Origin: Thermosulfuriphilus ammonigenes
GTDB lineage: Bacteria; Desulfobacterota; Thermodesulfobacteria; Thermodesulfobacteriales; ST65
Direction: 5' to 3'
DNA length: 64,000 bases
Assembly: GCF_011207455.1 (NCBI RefSeq)
Contig: NZ_CP048877.1
Span: 1,046,576-1,110,575, forward strand
Shown here: piece after piece, positions 16,141 to 62,369 of the stretch
Layout: every line of letters starts with the position of its first letter
How positions within the stretch are numbered: the stretch's first letter is position 1
Notes under the pieces: generated by a model
Database searches by the model: none
Told to the model about the DNA's origin: nothing
The model's input: the letters and a program-made list of their open reading frames with translations, nothing else
Position numbers and translations under genes: made by a program

Positions 16141-16948
16141 GATAAGCCTTGGTATTGCCCAGCTTATCACGGCCAGTCTCCTTATCTCCGGGGGCTCGGG
16201 TATCCTGGTAGCCTATCACTTCTATCCAGACCACGCCTTTGTCTCCGTGGTCGGGCTGGATACGGTAATCCCCTTCGGGCGACTTATCCGGGGGGTGCAC
16301 TTTTGGTCAAGTCAGTTCTTTTTTCTTCTGCTTCTCTGGCATCTGTGGGAGTCTATCCGCAGCGGAGCCCATTTAAGACGCCGGCTCCTTTACTGGAGTG
16401 GGCTGGTCCTTCTCCTTCCGGCCGCCCTGATGGCCCTCTTTACCGGATATGTCCTCCGGGAGGATCAGACCGGCATGGCCGCCGGGGCCATCGCTGAGCA
16501 TCTGGCCCTTTCTGTGCCCCTGATCGGCGGGGTGGTAAACGCCCTCTTTTTTGATCTGGAACACTCCGGGCTAATAAGGGTCTATAGTGCCCATATCTTG
16601 ATCTTTTTCATCATTCTTTGGGGAAGTCTCTGGTACCACCTAAAGAGACGGAGATTGGAAAGCGAGGATCTTCTCCGGGCCCTTGTCCTCTCTCTGATCC
16701 CCGCCCTTATCTTAGCCGCCCCCCTGGAGATGACCTCCGGGGCCCTTCTCATTAAGGGCCCCTGGTTCTTTCTTGGAGTTCAAGAGCTTCTGCGCTATCT
16801 TCCTCCGCTGGTGGCCGGAGTTCTCTACCCGGCCGTGCCCATTGGGGCCCTTCTGGCCCTGCCCCGGGCGGAGAAACCGTCTCTTCTTACCCTCGGCCTG
16901 TGGCTGGTGAGCTATTTCATTCTCACCTTAGTGGGAGAGTTGAGGTGA
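16118..16948 (+). CDS. Cytochrome b (Rieske/cyt b complex, N-terminal b6-like)
   Basis: 276-residue membrane protein related to the N-terminal haem-binding part of cytochrome b/b6. Haem-ligand His pairs can be seen in the helices GRLIRGVHFWSSQFFFLLLLWH and VYSAHILIFF...WYHL, and the PFGR/GYVLREDQTG region resembles the Qo-side GYVLPWDQ of cytochrome b. About seven to eight hydrophobic helices. The ATG at 16118 overlaps the Rieske gene by 23 bp, so a slightly later start cannot be excluded. Predicted to oxidise quinol and pass electrons through the Rieske protein to the multihaem cytochrome. Confidence 0.88.
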   Translation: MWWRSRSKISLGIAQLITASLLISGGSGILVAYHFYPDHAFVSVVGLDTVIPFGRLIRGVHFWSSQFFFLLLLWHLWESIRSGAHLRRRLLYWSGLVLLLPAALMALFTGYVLREDQTGMAAGAIAEHLALSVPLIGGVVNALFFDLEHSGLIRVYSAHILIFFIILWGSLWYHLKRRRLESEDLLRALVLSLIPALILAAPLEMTSGALLIKGPWFFLGVQELLRYLPPLVAGVLYPAVPIGALLALPRAEKPSLLTLGLWLVSYFILTLVGELR

Positions 16949-18633
16949 AGACCTGGCTATCTCTGGCCCTTATAGTTTTAATCCTTTCGGCCACAGTCTA
17001 TGAGGTCCTGCGGCACCGGGCCGACAAAGTCCACCTTCTCCTCAGCGGCCAGGTAGATATGTGTCTTTCCTGTCACCAGGAAGAGCCGGATCAGGCCCAT
17101 CAGGCCGGAGTGGTGGGCTGTGCTGAGTGCCACCTGGGCAATCCCTTGGCTTCAGAAAAATGGCGGGCCCACCGAGGGATGGTCAAAAATCCCGGAGAGC
17201 TGGTTTGGGCGGAGAAGACCTGCGGTCGGCAGGGGTGTCATCCCAGCGATGTCCCCAACCTCAAAAAGGCCCTCATGGCCACCAATCGGGGCATCATTGC
17301 TACCCTTCGTTACTACTGGGGAGAGACCGACGACCCCCGGGAGAATCTCACCGTAGAAGACCTTCAACGGACCGGGAAGACCTCCCTGGCCCTTGATTAC
17401 TTCCGTAAGCTCTGCGGCTCCTGTCACCTTTGGGTAAAACGCGGTGAGCTCCCTTCGTTTCTGGCCGAAAAAGGCGGAGGCTGCACAGCCTGTCATAATC
17501 AGCCTCCCCCACGCTCTACCGGAAACAAAAGGGGCAAACCCCATCCCCAGATCACCAAAAAAGTTCCCCTTGAGGCCTGCGTCCGCTGTCATAATCGCAG
17601 TGGCCGCCTGGGCCTTACCTATCAGGGGATGATCGAATCTGAAGGCTACGGCGTCCCTTATGATGAAGGTCTTCCCCGTTCAGATCTTATCGATGGTCGT
17701 TCGGTAATTCGTATCCCCCCTGATGTCCACTTTAAGGCCGGGCTGGTCTGCATCGACTGCCATCTGCGGGAAGAAATCATGGGCGATGGTAAGTCTTATG
17801 CCCATTTTGAGGAGCAGGTAGAAATAACCTGCCAGATGTGCCATGGCGGAGATGGTCTAAGCCGCAAGGGACGCAAGGCCCCCAACTTTAAGAAGGGGCC
17901 AAACGGACAACCAGTTCTGGAGGGCAAACTGGATGGTCGGCTCCACCCACTGGCCCCTCCCAAGGAGATCTGTCAGGGGCGAGACCACCAAAGATTATCC
18001 TGTCAGGCCTGTCATAGCTGGTATGTCCCCCAGTGCTACGGCTGTCACGTACGCCAGGATGAGAGTCAATCCCAGCTAGACAAAGTAAACGCCAGAGAAA
18101 CCAAGGGGCTCTGGGAAGAGTTTCGTTCCTACATGCGTTATGAGAGGCCTGTCTTGGGGGTACAAGGTAACAAGATCGAGATCCTTGTCCCTGGCTGACA
18201 GGATTTTGTCTCCCTGCTGGATGAGCAGGGACGCCTGAAGAGGACTTTCAAACGCCTTACCTGGTCTTTCATGGATCCCCACTCTACCCAGAAGAAGGGA
18301 CGCAGTTGTCCCGACTGTCATCAGTCGCCCAAAACCGTAGGGCTTGGCCCGGGAAATGTCTTCTTTGAAAACGGCCGTTTGCTCTTTGCCCCAGCAGATA
18401 CCGGAGCCGATCTGGGACTTAACCATTCCCTTCAGGCCCTGGTGGATACCTCGGGACAGCCCCTTACCAACCTCTCCCGGCCCAACCTCCGACCTTTTAA
18501 TCAAGAGGAGATAAGGCGTATCCTTCGGGTGGGCCTCTGCCTTGTCTGTCATCCAGACTACAGCGATCCGGTTATGCAAAACTGGCGTCCAGACCTCACT
18601 TGTCCGGTATTTGACGAAAAAAATGGCCTCTGA
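16945..18633 (+). CDS. 12-haem cytochrome c with in-frame UGA (candidate selenocysteine or recoded Cys codon)
   Basis: Starts at a GTG overlapping the cytochrome b stop (GTGA), with an N-terminal signal anchor. Haem sites before the UGA: CLSCH, CAECH, CGRQGCH (CX4CH), CGSCH, CTACH, CVRCH, CIDCH, CQMCH, CQACH, CYGCH. The TGA at 18196-18198 is codon 418 in the context LVPG-UGA-QDF. The same frame then stays open for 435 bp to 18633 with two more haem sites (CPDCH, CLVCH), normal codon usage and no ribosome-binding site of its own. Read through, it gives about 562 residues. If UGA is a stop, the product is 417 residues and the remainder is a relic. A strong hairpin lies just after the UGA. Likely the electron acceptor of the Rieske/cytochrome b complex. 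Confidence 0.75.
18196..18231 (+). promoter_or_regulatory. UGA plus SECIS-like hairpin
   Basis: After the in-frame TGA (18196-18198) and 12 nt, TCCCTGCT (18211-18218) pairs perfectly with AGCAGGGA (18224-18231) around the loop GGATG. The loop begins 20 nt after the UGA and opens with G, matching the general bacterial SECIS layout (small G-starting loop roughly 16-37 nt downstream). No T-run follows, so it is not a terminator. Confidence 0.6.
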
Positions 18634-55379: not shown

Positions 55380-56639
55380 TCAGCTCATCTTGCCAGCGAT
55401 GTAAACGGTAAGATCCCCCAACATATTGGTATAGCTGCCAAGCTCGTTGTCATACCAACCGTAGATAACCACCTGAGTCACCGGGACCTCCACCAGAGGA
55501 CAGGCCAGGGCCTTGAGGGCCTCCTCCGGGGCCTCACCGCAGGCCTTGGAGATATCCACCCGAATAGTGGCTGTTCTGGTGTGGGTCTCGGAGGCCTCGA
55601 TAATGGCGGCCGCCCTGGGGTAGCCGATAATATCGGCCGAGACATTCTGCTCCTCCGTATAAACCAGATAGTCCTTCATGGGGCCTGAGGCGGCCTTGGC
55701 GTAGATCTCATTTATTACCTCTCGGGTAACCCGATTCTCCACACTCTCATCATGAATATTAACGGTGAGGATAATCAGAGAACCAGTAGAGGTGGGGATA
55801 CGGACACTTTCGGCAATAAAGCCAATGCGCCGCATCTCTGGAATGACCAAGGCCAGGGCCTTGGCCGCCCCGGTAGTGGTAAGGATGATGTTATTAAAAA
55901 TACTGCGATTTTTTCGCAGATCTTTAGCCCCGGCCGCCGGTAGCCGGTCAAGAACCATCTGACTCCCGGTGGCCGCATGCACGGTAACCATGGAGGCGGT
56001 CAGTATTCGATCAGCCCCGAAGTGGTCTATAAGGGGTTTAATCATATAGGCCAGGCAGGTAGTGGTGCAGCTGGCCGCAGAGACCAGTTTGTGTTTGGCG
56101 GGGTTGAAGTCATCTTCGTTAATCCCCATAACCGTGGTTACGGCATCCTCTGGAATGGTCTTTTCTTTATCTTTTATCTTAAACGGGGCAGAAAGGATGG
56201 CCCTTTCGGCTCCGGCCTCAAGGTGCCCCCTGAGGGCCCCCCCGGGTTCGCTGGCCGGTTTGGTAGGGTCAGTAAAACGACCGGTAGAATCCACCACCAG
56301 TCGGACATCATGTTTCCGCCAGTTGATCTCAGCCGGGTTGCGACTTTCCCGAAGTATCCTCACCGGAACTCCGTCGATGGTCATGGTTCCCTCTGCCTCA
56401 TTAAGATTCTCAATAACCCGGCCAGACCTGTGCCCATAAAGATAAACGTTTAGCCGACCATAGGTGCTGTCTTTTTCGATGTAGTTGGCAATATCCTCCA
56501 GACTCCGACCAGCTTGGCGACCGATATTGACAACGATCTCCGGGAAGTGCTTCCGGGACACATGGTGCCAGAGGGTGAGCTTGCCGATTCTACCCAGACC
56601 ATTGATGCCAAGTTTCAGTGGACTCTTCGCCTCCGTCAT
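55380..56639 (-). CDS. Second glyceraldehyde-3-phosphate dehydrogenase-like protein, extended
   Basis: 419 residues, about 80 longer than the neighbouring Gap. NAD-binding [13 protein letters not shown], catalytic Cys in [10 protein letters not shown] (canonical SNASCTTNCL), and the C-terminal [18 protein letters not shown] are present. Insertions are spread along the N-terminal half. It may be a paralogue with different cofactor or direction preference. AAGGAGG before the ATG; next gene is the PPDK-like protein. Confidence 0.9.
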
Positions 56640-56663
56640 CTTGCCTCCTCCTTAAAGAGCTTT

Positions 56664-59600
56664 CTATTCAAGGGCAAATTTGACCTCTTCCTGAACGGGA
56701 TGTCGGCCGAGATAGACCCTGCCCCGAACCCCATCGATGCTGACCCAGTCTCCTTTCTTTACGGTATGGCCGTTGAAGCGGCAATATCCTTTTGGCTCAA
56801 AGACGACCATGGGCTGACATCCGACAACACACGTTTTACCCAGCCGGGCAGCGACAATGGCCGCATGGGAAGTCTGCCCGCCCTTAGCGGTCAAAAGGCC
56901 ATCAGCCAGCGAGATCTCCTGAATATCATCAGGAACTGTATCAGAGCGGATAAGAATGATGGGAACTCCAGGATCGGTCTCTCTAAGATCTTTAATATCC
57001 TCCAGGCTAAAGGCCGCCAGTCCCGACAGGGCGCCTCCATTTACCCCGATGCCCCGGGCAACAAAGCTCTTCTCCAGGGCCTCCGAGGGCACAAAAACCG
57101 GCACCCGTTCACGATCTTCCTTGGTAACCATATCCCGGCTCTGGAGGATAAAGAGCTTCTCGGCCTCCGGTCCCTCAAAGGTAAATTCGATTTCCTGAGG
57201 ACTCCACTTTTTGCGATAGACAAGCTCCTGGGCCATCTTATAAAGGGCCTGATAAATCTCTGGAAAGGCCTCCTCCAGGGATAGCTCTCCGGAGCGTCCT
57301 TCCCGCTTTTTCTGTTCAATGGAGATAGGATAGGTGGTCACCAAACCGGAAACAATATCTTCTCCCTGATTGCCGGGAGTGTAGTCGCCCCAAAGAACAA
57401 CCCTGGAGAGCTTACCAAAGGGCGGAGCCGTAAAGAGCACTCCCGTGCCTGAATCCCGGGAAAGATTCCCAAAGGTCATACACTGGACGATGACCGCTGT
57501 CCCCCAATTATCGGATATCCCCATGATCTGCCGGTAGGCCCGGGCCTTGGGAGAGTCCCAAGAGCCGAGAACAAGCCTTATGGCCACCAGGAGTTGTTCC
57601 CAGGGATCATCAGCGATCTCCAAACCGTAGTCAAGAACTGTCCGGCGGTAAAGGAGGGCCAGCTCCTTCATCTGCTCTCCCGTAAAGTCCCTCTTCTTGA
57701 CCACCCGGTAGCGCTCCTTATGGGTCCGCATGAGGGAGTTAAAGATCTCCCGCTCCATACCAAAAGCCATTCCCCAGCTCTGGACAAAGCGGCGATAGGT
57801 ATCCCAGGCAAACCAGACCTGGCCTGTTCTCTCGGCCAGCCCCTCGATGATCTCCGGATTGCTACCCACATTGAGAAGAGTGGCCATCATCCCGGGCATG
57901 GAGATAGCCGCCCCACTCCGAACCGAAAGAAGGAGCGGATTAGTGGGAGAGCCGAAAGTCCGACCTGTTTCCTCCTCCAGCCGGTGAATGCCGTCTTTTA
58001 TCTGGGCGATAAAGTCTTCGTGGGCCTTAACAGAAAGCTGAATGATCCGATAGCAACGGAAAACCTCGGTAGTAATAATGAAGCCTGGAGGCACCCGAAT
58101 TCCCTCCCGGGCCAGGAGATAAAGATTATATCCTTTGTTGCCCAGATGAATAAGGTCTTCGGTTAGAGGGTTGGGTTGATGGATAAAACAGATGGCCCGA
58201 CCAGGGTCATAACTCAGAAGGAGGTCGAGATCCTCGGCCGAGAGGCCTTCCCGCTGCTCAAGAATGGTATGATAGATACGACTGACAAAGTTATCCAGAT
58301 ATTGAAGCCCGAAGGCCGAGGCAATGAGATCCCTCAAGAAACGCTCTGAGAGGCGATGGAAAAGTTCCCGATCGCATAGCCTCTCGGCCCCAACCAAGTA
58401 CTTCGGAAGCAGGTTCTCGCGTCCGAGTTGCCGAATAATTATTCCCAAATTTTCCCGGTGGGGGCTGACGTAATAGACCTTGATAATGTCCTTAACCCCC
58501 TCGGAAAGCCCCCGAACAATGTCCACATACTGGGTAAAGGTAAAGCGGCGCACCTCAAGGGATTTCTCCAGAAGGGTGAGATAAGTATTAAACTTTTTGG
58601 AACTGATTCCCTCCAGCTCCAAGGCTCGCTGAAAGAAACGCAGGCACTTGAGAATTTTGTAAAAGGTGGCCCGGGTAATAAAAGGAATGTCGATGGAATC
58701 CACCAGACGTTCAAAATAAACGTTGGCCAGATTCTCTAGCCGAAACGTAAGCCCCAGGGCATCAAACTTCCGCTCATGGTAGCGACCATACATGGAGGGG
58801 ATATCAGCAGCAATATGGCGTTTGTGGTAGATATCCTCTCGGGCCTCAAACTTCTCCGGGGAGAGAATGATCCCCTTTAGATAACATAGATAATCCAGGA
58901 TGGCGTCAAGACAGGCGGCCGGATCGTCCTTCTTATCCTTAAGGATGGTAATTAGATGGTCCAGGTTCTCAAAACCCCAATATTTGGCCTGCTCCAGATG
59001 GTAGAAGATCTCCTCTACCCCCAGAGTGTATTTGATGTTCTCCAGACGATACATCTTCACCAAGAGCTGAAAGCGCCTGCGCTCCTGCTCGGAGACGTCT
59101 TTTTGAGCAGCCAGGAAGGACTCCAGCTCCTCATCTGAGAGACGCAAAAGTTGCTCAGGTCTTTGGAGCTCAAAGGTTTCAAAAAGGCGTTTAAGAAGCA
59201 GGTGAACTTCATCCACAAAAGGCCCGGAAGTCTCTATCTGTTCCAGAACCTCCGGGGGAACATAACGGGAAAGGCCTGACTTTTCCCTGGTGAGCCAGAA
59301 GCGGAAGATCTCCTCAATGAAATCAAGGATCAGATTAGAGGATTCCACATGACTCTGCTTACGCAGAAAGTGGATAAGGGGATCCTTGCGCCGAAGAATC
59401 TCGTCAAGCTCGGTGGAGACATCGCGCAGCAGACCTTCAGCCCCGATCTCATTAAAATAGACGGGAAGAATCCGGCAGAACTGCTTGACAAGATTGTAGA
59501 CAGGCTCAATCTCGCTGTTGAGGAGCTTGGTAATATCTTTCTGAAAAAGATCTGTGTCTCGAATGCAGGTGCCAGCCAACTTGAGATTAATGATCAGGGC

Positions 59601-60920
59601 GGACAGCAGGGTGGTGCACCACTTCGGATTGCGGCCGATAAGATCAAGCCAGATGCGAATATTAAGCAGATGGGCCGGATTACAGATTACGTGCCACTCG
59701 ACATCCACTCCCTGGACATTGGGGGGTTGAAAACCAAAGCGAACCACCTGTTCCAGAAAAAGCTCCACCAGGTGAGGACTGGCCCGATCGAAGATCTCCT
59801 GCCCCAGGGCCCGGATACACTCCAGGGCCGTATGAGGGTATTCGGCCACGTTGTCCCGCAGAAGCTCAAAAGAGCGGACGATAAACTCCTCCAGACGGGC
59901 TGGAGGCTCCCGGCGAACCATGGAGACCAGGATCCGGTTGACCTCTCTAAGGGTCTCCTCGTGGATGGGAGCCAGACCTTTTAGCTCCAAGATGTGGAAG
60001 AGAAACAATATGTGACAGTTGCGTAAAGGGTCATCGGCGGCCAGGCCCTGGGAGAGCTCCTCCAGCCTCCGGGCTATCTCTTTGTAGCTCCGGATAAGGT
60101 CGATGAAGTCTGGAAACTCCAGAAGCCTATCCAGGGCAGCCCTTGAGCTTAAGGCATAAGGGAAGGCCTCCAGGACAGCCAGATACTGCCGTAAAGTCTC
60201 GTGTGAGATTGGTTGAAAGATAGCACAGGCATCTTCCTTAAGGCAGGTCTTTTGACACTGAGACAAAAACCAGGCCAAAGGATCAGGGGCCTTAAGCCAG
60301 AAGTGGTAGGTAAGGACCAGCCCCCGATAGATGAGCCGGGCGAGATTCTCCAGACCAGCCTCTGGTGGCAATTTGTGGAGCAGGCTTCGCCCCAGCCTTT
60401 TAAGGGAATGGTAGCTCTGCATAAGGGAGATGAAGGTCTCATCAGGGATACTCTGAAGGCGCCCAAAGATGTAGTTAAGGAAGGGAAGGTAGGCAGGAAA
60501 GCTATCCTCAGGAAGGACCTCGACAATCTTCTCCAGATAGGCCCAGAGGGCATCAATAGCCTGGGATTTTATATCCTCCTCTTTGGCCTCCAGGATAAGG
60601 TCAATAAAGACATCGGCAATGGCGGCCGAGGCCTCGGCCCCTCGTTCGTGGAGGCCATAAGCCTTGAAGTTTTTCAGGGCAAAGGATCTAAGCTCCGGCA
60701 GGATCAAACGCCAGTTTCGATAGGGATGATGAAGCTCAAAAAGAAGGTGGTCTACCTGTTTACGAAGCCCCTGGTAGTCAGCCACCACCTCTCTTAAGAC
60801 TTCAAACCGGGGCTGGATGCAGACGGACTCAACCGCGGTTTCCTGAAGATTGGCCCTCAGGGCGTCGGATTCCAGAGGAATCTCGCGCCCTGGAGGGCAG
60901 GCATTTGGCGGATTCTTCAT
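56664..60920 (-). CDS. Giant PPDK-like protein without the pyruvate/PEP barrel
   Basis: 1418 residues. The first ~900 are mostly helical and unrecognised. From about 915 there is a PPDK-type ATP-binding domain (IHLGNKGYNLYLLAREGIRVPPGF, LLLSVRSGAAISMPGMMATLLNVG, DNWGTAVIVQCMTFGNLSRDSGTGV), then the swivelling phosphohistidine domain with TSHAA, His1352 as phospho-carrier. The C-terminal TIM barrel that handles PEP/pyruvate is missing; the protein ends about 65 residues after the His. So it can probably be phosphorylated by ATP on His1352 but the acceptor is unknown, perhaps bound by the N-terminal region. It lies between two GAPDH genes. Confidence 0.85.
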   Translation of the reverse strand: MKNPPNACPPGREIPLESDALRANLQETAVESVCIQPRFEVLREVVADYQGLRKQVDHLLFELHHPYRNWRLILPELRSFALKNFKAYGLHERGAEASAAIADVFIDLILEAKEEDIKSQAIDALWAYLEKIVEVLPEDSFPAYLPFLNYIFGRLQSIPDETFISLMQSYHSLKRLGRSLLHKLPPEAGLENLARLIYRGLVLTYHFWLKAPDPLAWFLSQCQKTCLKEDACAIFQPISHETLRQYLAVLEAFPYALSSRAALDRLLEFPDFIDLIRSYKEIARRLEELSQGLAADDPLRNCHILFLFHILELKGLAPIHEETLREVNRILVSMVRREPPARLEEFIVRSFELLRDNVAEYPHTALECIRALGQEIFDRASPHLVELFLEQVVRFGFQPPNVQGVDVEWHVICNPAHLLNIRIWLDLIGRNPKWCTTLLSALIINLKLAGTCIRDTDLFQKDITKLLNSEIEPVYNLVKQFCRILPVYFNEIGAEGLLRDVSTELDEILRRKDPLIHFLRKQSHVESSNLILDFIEEIFRFWLTREKSGLSRYVPPEVLEQIETSGPFVDEVHLLLKRLFETFELQRPEQLLRLSDEELESFLAAQKDVSEQERRRFQLLVKMYRLENIKYTLGVEEIFYHLEQAKYWGFENLDHLITILKDKKDDPAACLDAILDYLCYLKGIILSPEKFEAREDIYHKRHIAADIPSMYGRYHERKFDALGLTFRLENLANVYFERLVDSIDIPFITRATFYKILKCLRFFQRALELEGISSKKFNTYLTLLEKSLEVRRFTFTQYVDIVRGLSEGVKDIIKVYYVSPHRENLGIIIRQLGRENLLPKYLVGAERLCDRELFHRLSERFLRDLIASAFGLQYLDNFVSRIYHTILEQREGLSAEDLDLLLSYDPGRAICFIHQPNPLTEDLIHLGNKGYNLYLLAREGIRVPPGFIITTEVFRCYRIIQLSVKAHEDFIAQIKDGIHRLEEETGRTFGSPTNPLLLSVRSGAAISMPGMMATLLNVGSNPEIIEGLAERTGQVWFAWDTYRRFVQSWGMAFGMEREIFNSLMRTHKERYRVVKKRDFTGEQMKELALLYRRTVLDYGLEIADDPWEQLLVAIRLVLGSWDSPKARAYRQIMGISDNWGTAVIVQCMTFGNLSRDSGTGVLFTAPPFGKLSRVVLWGDYTPGNQGEDIVSGLVTTYPISIEQKKREGRSGELSLEEAFPEIYQALYKMAQELVYRKKWSPQEIEFTFEGPEAEKLFILQSRDMVTKEDRERVPVFVPSEALEKSFVARGIGVNGGALSGLAAFSLEDIKDLRETDPGVPIILIRSDTVPDDIQEISLADGLLTAKGGQTSHAAIVAARLGKTCVVGCQPMVVFEPKGYCRFNGHTVKKGDWVSIDGVRGRVYLGRHPVQEEVKFALE

Positions 60921-61931
60921 CTAGACGGCCCTTTTGCTATCCATGAATTTAATCAGATCAAGAACCCGATTGGAATACCCCCACTCATTGTCGTACCAGG
61001 CCATGACTTTTACCATGTAACCCTCAATGACCCGGGTGCAAAGTCCATCAACCACCGCCGAATGCTGGTTCCCCAGAAAGTCTGTGGATACCAGAGGCTC
61101 CTCGGTGTAGCCCAGAAAGCGGCTCTGGGCGGCCTTAAGGGCCTCATTAACCTCAGGGACCGTAACCTCTCGCTCCACCTCACAGACCAGGTCAATAAGG
61201 GAAACGTCTGGGGTGGGCACCCGGACAGCCAGACCATCAAATTTGCCCTGGAGTTCAGGGATCACCTTGCCCACCGCCGCCGCCGCCCCGGTCTTGGTGG
61301 GAATCATGTTCACCGCCGCCGCCCGGGCCCGCCGCAGGTCTTTGTGAGGAAAGTCAAGGATTCGCTGGTCATTGGTGTAGGCGTGAACTGTAGTCACCAA
61401 CCCCCTTTTGATGCCAAAGCGATCCAGGATCACCTTGGCCACCGGAGCCAAACAGTTAGTGGTGCAAGAGGCGTTGGAAACTACATGATGCTCAAGAGGA
61501 TTGTAATCGTCTTCATTGACCCCCATAACAATAGTAATATCTTCATTTTTGGCCGGGGCAGTAATAACCACCTTCTTGGCCCCAGCATCCAGGTGCCCGC
61601 GGGCCAGATTGCCGTCGGTAAAACGACCGGTGGCCTCAATAACGTAATCTACCCCCATCTCCGCCCAGGGGATCTTGGCCGGCTCGGTAAAGTTAAAGAT
61701 ACGAACCTCCTCTCCATCAACAAGGAGACCGTTTTCCGTAGCCTTTACCTCCTGAGGCAGGGTTCCCATCACTGAATCATATTTTAACAGGTGAGCCAGA
61801 GTGCGATTATCGGTGAGATCATTGACGGCTACAATCTGGATATCATCTTTAAATTCTGGATATTTAAGGTGGGCCCGATAAATACAACGCCCGATACGGC
61901 CAAAACCGTTAATACCAACCCGTATAGCCAT
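60921..61931 (-). CDS. gap: Glyceraldehyde-3-phosphate dehydrogenase
   Basis: 336 residues. VGINGFGRIGR, catalytic Cys in SNASCTTNCLAP, and AWYDNEWGYSNRV. AAGGAGG lies directly against an ATG at 61937 but 6 bp before the ATG at 61931, so I prefer the latter, giving the normal MAIRVGINGF start. First gene of the gap-ppdk-like-gap2-pgk-tpiA-secG operon. Confidence 0.97.
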   Translation of the reverse strand: MAIRVGINGFGRIGRCIYRAHLKYPEFKDDIQIVAVNDLTDNRTLAHLLKYDSVMGTLPQEVKATENGLLVDGEEVRIFNFTEPAKIPWAEMGVDYVIEATGRFTDGNLARGHLDAGAKKVVITAPAKNEDITIVMGVNEDDYNPLEHHVVSNASCTTNCLAPVAKVILDRFGIKRGLVTTVHAYTNDQRILDFPHKDLRRARAAAVNMIPTKTGAAAAVGKVIPELQGKFDGLAVRVPTPDVSLIDLVCEVEREVTVPEVNEALKAAQSRFLGYTEEPLVSTDFLGNQHSAVVDGLCTRVIEGYMVKVMAWYDNEWGYSNRVLDLIKFMDSKRAV

Positions 61932-61991
61932 AGCCATCCTCCTTATTTAGATTTTTCCATCCTGATCGGAAAAACCCTCCGGTCTTTGAAG

Positions 61992-62057: not shown

Positions 62058-62155
62058 TTAGCATCTTTTATAAGAGAAAGCGAAAGGTTATCATAGATGT
62101 TATCGATAGAATCTATTTGAAATAGCAATCAAACACCGCTAAGTATTTGTAATGA

Positions 62156-62244
62156 GGGGACGATGGTGCTGGGCACCCGGCGGGCTGCAAACCCGCTTGT
62201 TCCCGGGTTAAACCGGGAAGGAGGTTCGATTCCCCTCGTCCCCT
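62156..62244 (+). tRNA. tRNA-Sec-like tRNA-Cys (GCA anticodon), tRNA-ReC type
   Basis: 89 nt without encoded CCA. Acceptor GGGGACGA pairs with TCGTCCCC (8 bp; or 7/5 if the last pair is given to the T stem), and the base at 73 is U, the Cys identity base. The D arm is a short stem (GGTGC/GCACC) with a tiny loop, as in tRNA-Sec. Anticodon arm GCGGG-CTGCAAA-CCCGC gives GCA. The variable arm is long, TTCCCGG/CCGGGAA (7 bp). T-loop TTCGATT, with one A-C mismatch in the T stem. Ordinary tRNA-Cys is class I with a short variable loop; this is class II. Confidence 0.85.
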
Positions 62245-62369
62245 AATCTCCTGATCCCAGAACAAAACTTTTTAAATCTGGTCGGGACAAAACCACCGAT
62301 TCCGCAAAGATTTGGACTCAGCCCCTTGTCTCCTATCCGGCCATTTGAGCTGGCAAATCTATTAGGATC

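Follow-up and report, generated by a model that had tools for sequence, protein, structure and literature searches.

Background

The closest described counterparts of the gene studied here are selC* tRNA-Cys, or tRNA-ReC, a rare group of tRNAs described in 2017-2018 (Mukai et al. 2017; Vargas-Rodriguez et al. 2018) and reviewed since (PMC7609411, PMC11415595), with Thermodesulfobacteria named among the carriers in a review of the group. A 4-bp T-stem with an unpaired A (51a) is a trait of selC* tRNA-Cys (PMC7609411), and Cys insertion activity has been demonstrated for a related tRNA that is a close analogue of the present one (PMC11415595). A selB* gene downstream of selC* has been described for the Syntrophobacterales and Desulfobacterales only, and such a neighbour is therefore not a universal trait of tRNA-ReC (PMC7609411). 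In canonical tRNA-Sec the D-arm consists of a 6-bp stem and a 4-nt loop (PMC7609411), and EF-Tu prefers an acceptor/T helix of 12 bp (PMC11231383).

We report that a 64,000-nucleotide stretch of the Thermosulfuriphilus ammonigenes chromosome (the window) carries a real, intact class II tRNA gene of this kind (Table 1). It is a new member of an already published group, its presence in Thermodesulfobacteria included, and the lack of SelB* in its genome is mildly unusual.

Table 1. Coordinates of the tRNA, its arms and the UGA-containing cytochrome gene in the window
Feature	Position	Strand	Details	Basis
selC*-type tRNA-Cys (tRNA-ReC)	62156..62244	+	8/4 class II; anticodon GCA 62187-62189; U73 at 62244	
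Acceptor stem, 5' strand, 8 bp	62156..62163	+	partner strand 62236-62243	
D-arm	62165..62177	+	stem 5 bp, loop UGG (3 nt)	free-energy fold
Anticodon arm	62179..62197	+	stem 6 bp including one G-U pair, loop CUGCAAA	free-energy fold
Variable arm	62200..62219	+	stem 7 bp, loop 6 nt	free-energy fold
T-arm	62220..62235	+	GG-A-GG/CCCC, 4 bp, bulged A at 62222 (A51a of selC* tRNA-Cys)	by eye and alignment
Multiheme c-type cytochrome, ExtM-like	16945..18633	+	in-frame UGA 18196-18198; possible, not dedicated target	
SECIS-like hairpin	18211..18231	+	15 nt past UGA start; stem UCCCUGCU/AGCAGGGA, loop GGAUG	

Structure and identity of the tRNA

The initial annotation had described a class II tRNA with a 7-bp variable arm, a minimal D-loop, a GCA anticodon and U73, and free-energy folding, ARAGORN and Rfam bear out each of these features as well as the exact coordinates. 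ARAGORN calls a tRNA-Cys (GCA) at 62155-62245, and folding of the gene recovers the acceptor, D, anticodon and variable stems (z = -3.07). Of all Rfam families the best match is RF01852 (tRNA-Sec; 53.0 bits, gathering score 47, E = 7.3e-8), ahead of the clan's generic tRNA model, and assignment to a different class by a covariance model, which had been named as evidence against the annotation, was thus not found. Canonical class I tRNA-Cys (7/5, short variable loop) is ruled out by the class II fold; the genome's own canonical tRNA-Cys (GCA) is a separate gene.

The gene shows every structural and identity feature of tRNA-ReC that we tested, in line with the annotated identity. Shared with the published group are the 8/4 fold, the bulged A of the T-stem, the long variable arm, U73 and GCA, as well as the coexistence with canonical tRNA-Sec, tRNA-Cys and a Sec system; it differs in that no SelB* clade member and no cysS* were found in the window's genome and no selB beside the tRNA gene, and in that CCA is not encoded. 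Two acceptor-stem pairs, A5-U and G7-C, replace the group consensus G5-C and A7-U in the alignment and represent compensated changes, and loop positions that are invariant across the group have been retained. Allo-tRNAs (8/4 or 9/3) are similar in their unusual 8/4 cloverleaf and long variable arm but have Ser or Ala identity (G3:U70 for Ala), whereas the window tRNA has Cys identity, G3:C70 and U73.

With canonical tRNA-Sec the gene shares the long acceptor stem, the small D-loop, the long variable arm and the match to RF01852, and a tRNA-Sec with a GCA anticodon is known (PMC11415595). It might hence be read as a variant tRNA-Sec whose Cys anticodon directs Sec to UGC/UGU, as in Aeromonas salmonicida, a reading to which we give hardly any credence. 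Canonical tRNA-Sec has UCA, G73, a 6-bp D-stem and an 8/5 fold, whereas the window tRNA has GCA, U73 instead of G73, a D-stem of 5 bp and not the 6 bp read by SelA, and a bulged 4-bp T-stem; moreover, a canonical tRNA-Sec (UCA) with G73 is separately present in the genome.

Selenocysteine and cysteine machinery of the genome

The window is part of a complete chromosome of 2.29 Mb with one copy each of selA and selB and a canonical tRNA-Sec (UCA) at 2200871-2200964 (L001:1501-1594; 76.4 bits with RF01852, G73, CCA encoded). Absence of selB and selC, the other finding that would have spoken against the annotation, does not apply to this genome. The selB gene belongs to the canonical clade and is located about 840 kb from tRNA-ReC.

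The standalone CysRS is intact with respect to HIGH, KMSKS and the C-terminal domain. A second CysRS is an 824-aa cysteine synthase-CysRS fusion (L089:1471-3945; genome 1733400-1734776 region), and in its synthetase part HLGL replaces HIGH and KMSRS replaces KMSKS. This CysK-CysRS fusion is present in 117 of the 297 phylum genomes, that is in 23/29 tRNA-ReC carriers vs 94/268 non-carriers (p = 9e-6, shared ancestry ignored). A fusion specific to tRNA-ReC is rejected on the basis of these 94 non-carriers and of the 11 further order members sampled, every one of which has it. That it might act as a coupled unit, both making cysteine and charging tRNA-ReC in a dedicated Cys channel for UGA recoding that bypasses the ordinary CysRS, is in our view very unlikely.

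Relatives and phylogenetic distribution

Relatives were found by DNA search, a covariance model was then built from 37 of them, and genomes with a score of at least 87 bits were considered clear carriers. Using this model, 29 of the 297 genomes of the phylum Desulfobacterota are clear tRNA-ReC carriers. In named genomes a pattern scan recovered 73 loci, the majority in sulfate-reducing Desulfobacterota; a few carry the label Actinobacteria and one that of Thermodesulfovibrionales. U73 is present in 97 of 98 relatives, and the anticodon is GCA or UCA. In the alignment of the 37 relatives standard pairs make up 97.9% of the paired cells, and both sides have changed at 15 of 27 pairs vs a shuffle mean of 5.3. 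Covariation hence supports the fold of the tRNA-ReC group beyond chance. Nearly all carriers scanned also have canonical tRNA-Sec, the three exceptions being incomplete assemblies.

Within the window's order, tRNA-ReC was detected in this genome only (1/41 genomes), and the gene stands alone between divergent genes for GAPDH and a sensor histidine kinase, both on the opposite strand. It is also one of two tRNAs without an encoded CCA (44 of the genome's 46 tRNAs have it), and no clear promoter or terminator was found at the locus. These data would fit a lone, disused remnant, acquired horizontally or left behind after SelB* loss, which we nevertheless regard as improbable, given that the stems are all fully paired and compensated, that the invariant loop positions have been kept, and that an encoded CCA is missing in some other carriers too.

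At window 55380-61937 (minus strand), a 1418-aa PPDK-like protein, whose long N-terminal part has no family assignment, is encoded between two different GAPDH genes. Variants of the tRNA were seen in other genomes. In five genomes of one family (L074-L078) the acceptor/T helix of tRNA-ReC is 8/5 and the bulged A is missing; all five have a single selB, and the one examined (from G017) falls within the canonical clade. Besides tRNA-Sec, G294 has a divergent tRNA-Sec-like tRNA-Cys (GCA; L186:1501-1594, 70 bits) whose 5-bp T-stem contains a bulged C.

Association with SelB genes

At 72 of 98 loci a SelB start is found on the same strand at most 1.5 kb downstream (median gap 44.5 bp), in agreement with the published position of selB* downstream of selC* (PMC7609411). 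Two selB genes are present in 18/29 carriers vs 2/268 non-carriers (Fisher p = 2e-19, shared ancestry ignored). The tRNA-ReC group is strongly tied, evolutionarily, to SelB genes. The SelB* proteins have kept the elongation-factor domains, and most of the eight that were scanned have winged-helix domains. In the SelB tree 18 sampled canonical SelB proteins and that of the window's genome form one clade (support 1.0) apart from all SelB*, and the SelB of the window's genome groups with those of order-mates that are without tRNA-ReC. Carriers without a second selB include the window's genome, the five 8/5-helix genomes and G249. Two genomes, G083 and G157, have two selB genes and no detected tRNA-ReC. 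The partner factor of the window tRNA is uncertain because the gene is not beside selB and the genome is without a member of the SelB* clade.

The acceptor/T helix of the window tRNA is 4+8 = 12 bp, which is the length preferred by EF-Tu and counts against delivery by SelB. The gene could thus encode an extra Cys tRNA for ordinary UGC/UGU codons with EF-Tu as its delivery factor, its tRNA-Sec-like shape having no recoding role here. Pairing of GCA with UGC/UGU, the fit of the helix to EF-Tu (PMC11231383) and a genome without SelB* in which the gene does not adjoin selB are all consistent with such a tRNA. We consider it unlikely all the same, since the genome already has its canonical tRNA-Cys (GCA), among the tested analogues the closest one works without EF-Tu (PMC11415595) and the link to SelB genes holds for the group as a whole.

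Proposed function

By analogy with the published group, we suggest that the gene probably encodes a functional selC*-type tRNA-Cys that is charged by CysRS, delivered by the canonical SelB and used as a fallback to place Cys at SECIS-flanked UGA codons. The ordinary CysRS would recognise U73 and GCA as the marks for charging with cysteine, while the 8-bp acceptor stem and the tRNA-Sec-like body may allow binding by the single canonical SelB of the genome. SelB would bring Cys-tRNA to a UGA codon followed by a SECIS hairpin, where GCA would mispair with UGA and Cys would be inserted. Operating alongside normal Sec-tRNA-Sec, this could give full-length selenoproteins as Cys variants under selenium shortage. 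Vargas-Rodriguez et al. in 2018 reportedly used the name tRNA-ReC and described GCA mispairing with UGA as a selenoprotein safeguard.

If delivery by the canonical SelB is true, two tRNAs compete for a single ordinary SelB at the same UGA codons, and the choice between Sec and Cys could therefore depend on selenium supply alone. A dedicated SelB* spares most relatives such rivalry. Carriers that have no SelB* are few and offer a natural test of whether Cys-tRNA-ReC is acceptable to an ordinary SelB and whether the T-arm adapts to it; as to the latter, the 8/5 helix of one SelB*-less group has 13 bp, the length in canonical tRNA-Sec.

UGA codons in the cytochrome gene and near tRNA-ReC loci

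The cytochrome gene at 16945 had been put forward as a natural target of the tRNA. Its in-frame UGA is real and conserved: of 24 orthologues, 16 have UGA at the aligned position and 8 a Cys codon (UGC/UGU), and no other residue is encoded there. A hairpin 15-20 nt downstream was predicted for 10 of the 11 UGA orthologues folded and for none of three Cys orthologues. As judged from these sequences, the codon is a genuine Sec site with Cys as its natural substitute, and since it is exchanged only for Cys, insertion of Cys would plausibly leave a working cytochrome. A role as dedicated target did not hold, as UGA orthologues are also present in order-mates without the tRNA, and tRNA-ReC is therefore not needed for the cytochrome gene. 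In NCBIfam the protein best matches a selenite/tellurite-reduction cytochrome, with a score under the cut-off of that family.

A search for FdhA with UGA beside the tRNA-ReC relatives gave Cys codons or no match only. At two loci (L109 and L116) tRNA-ReC (GCA) directly follows, in the same orientation, a formate dehydrogenase gene with a Cys codon at the Sec position.
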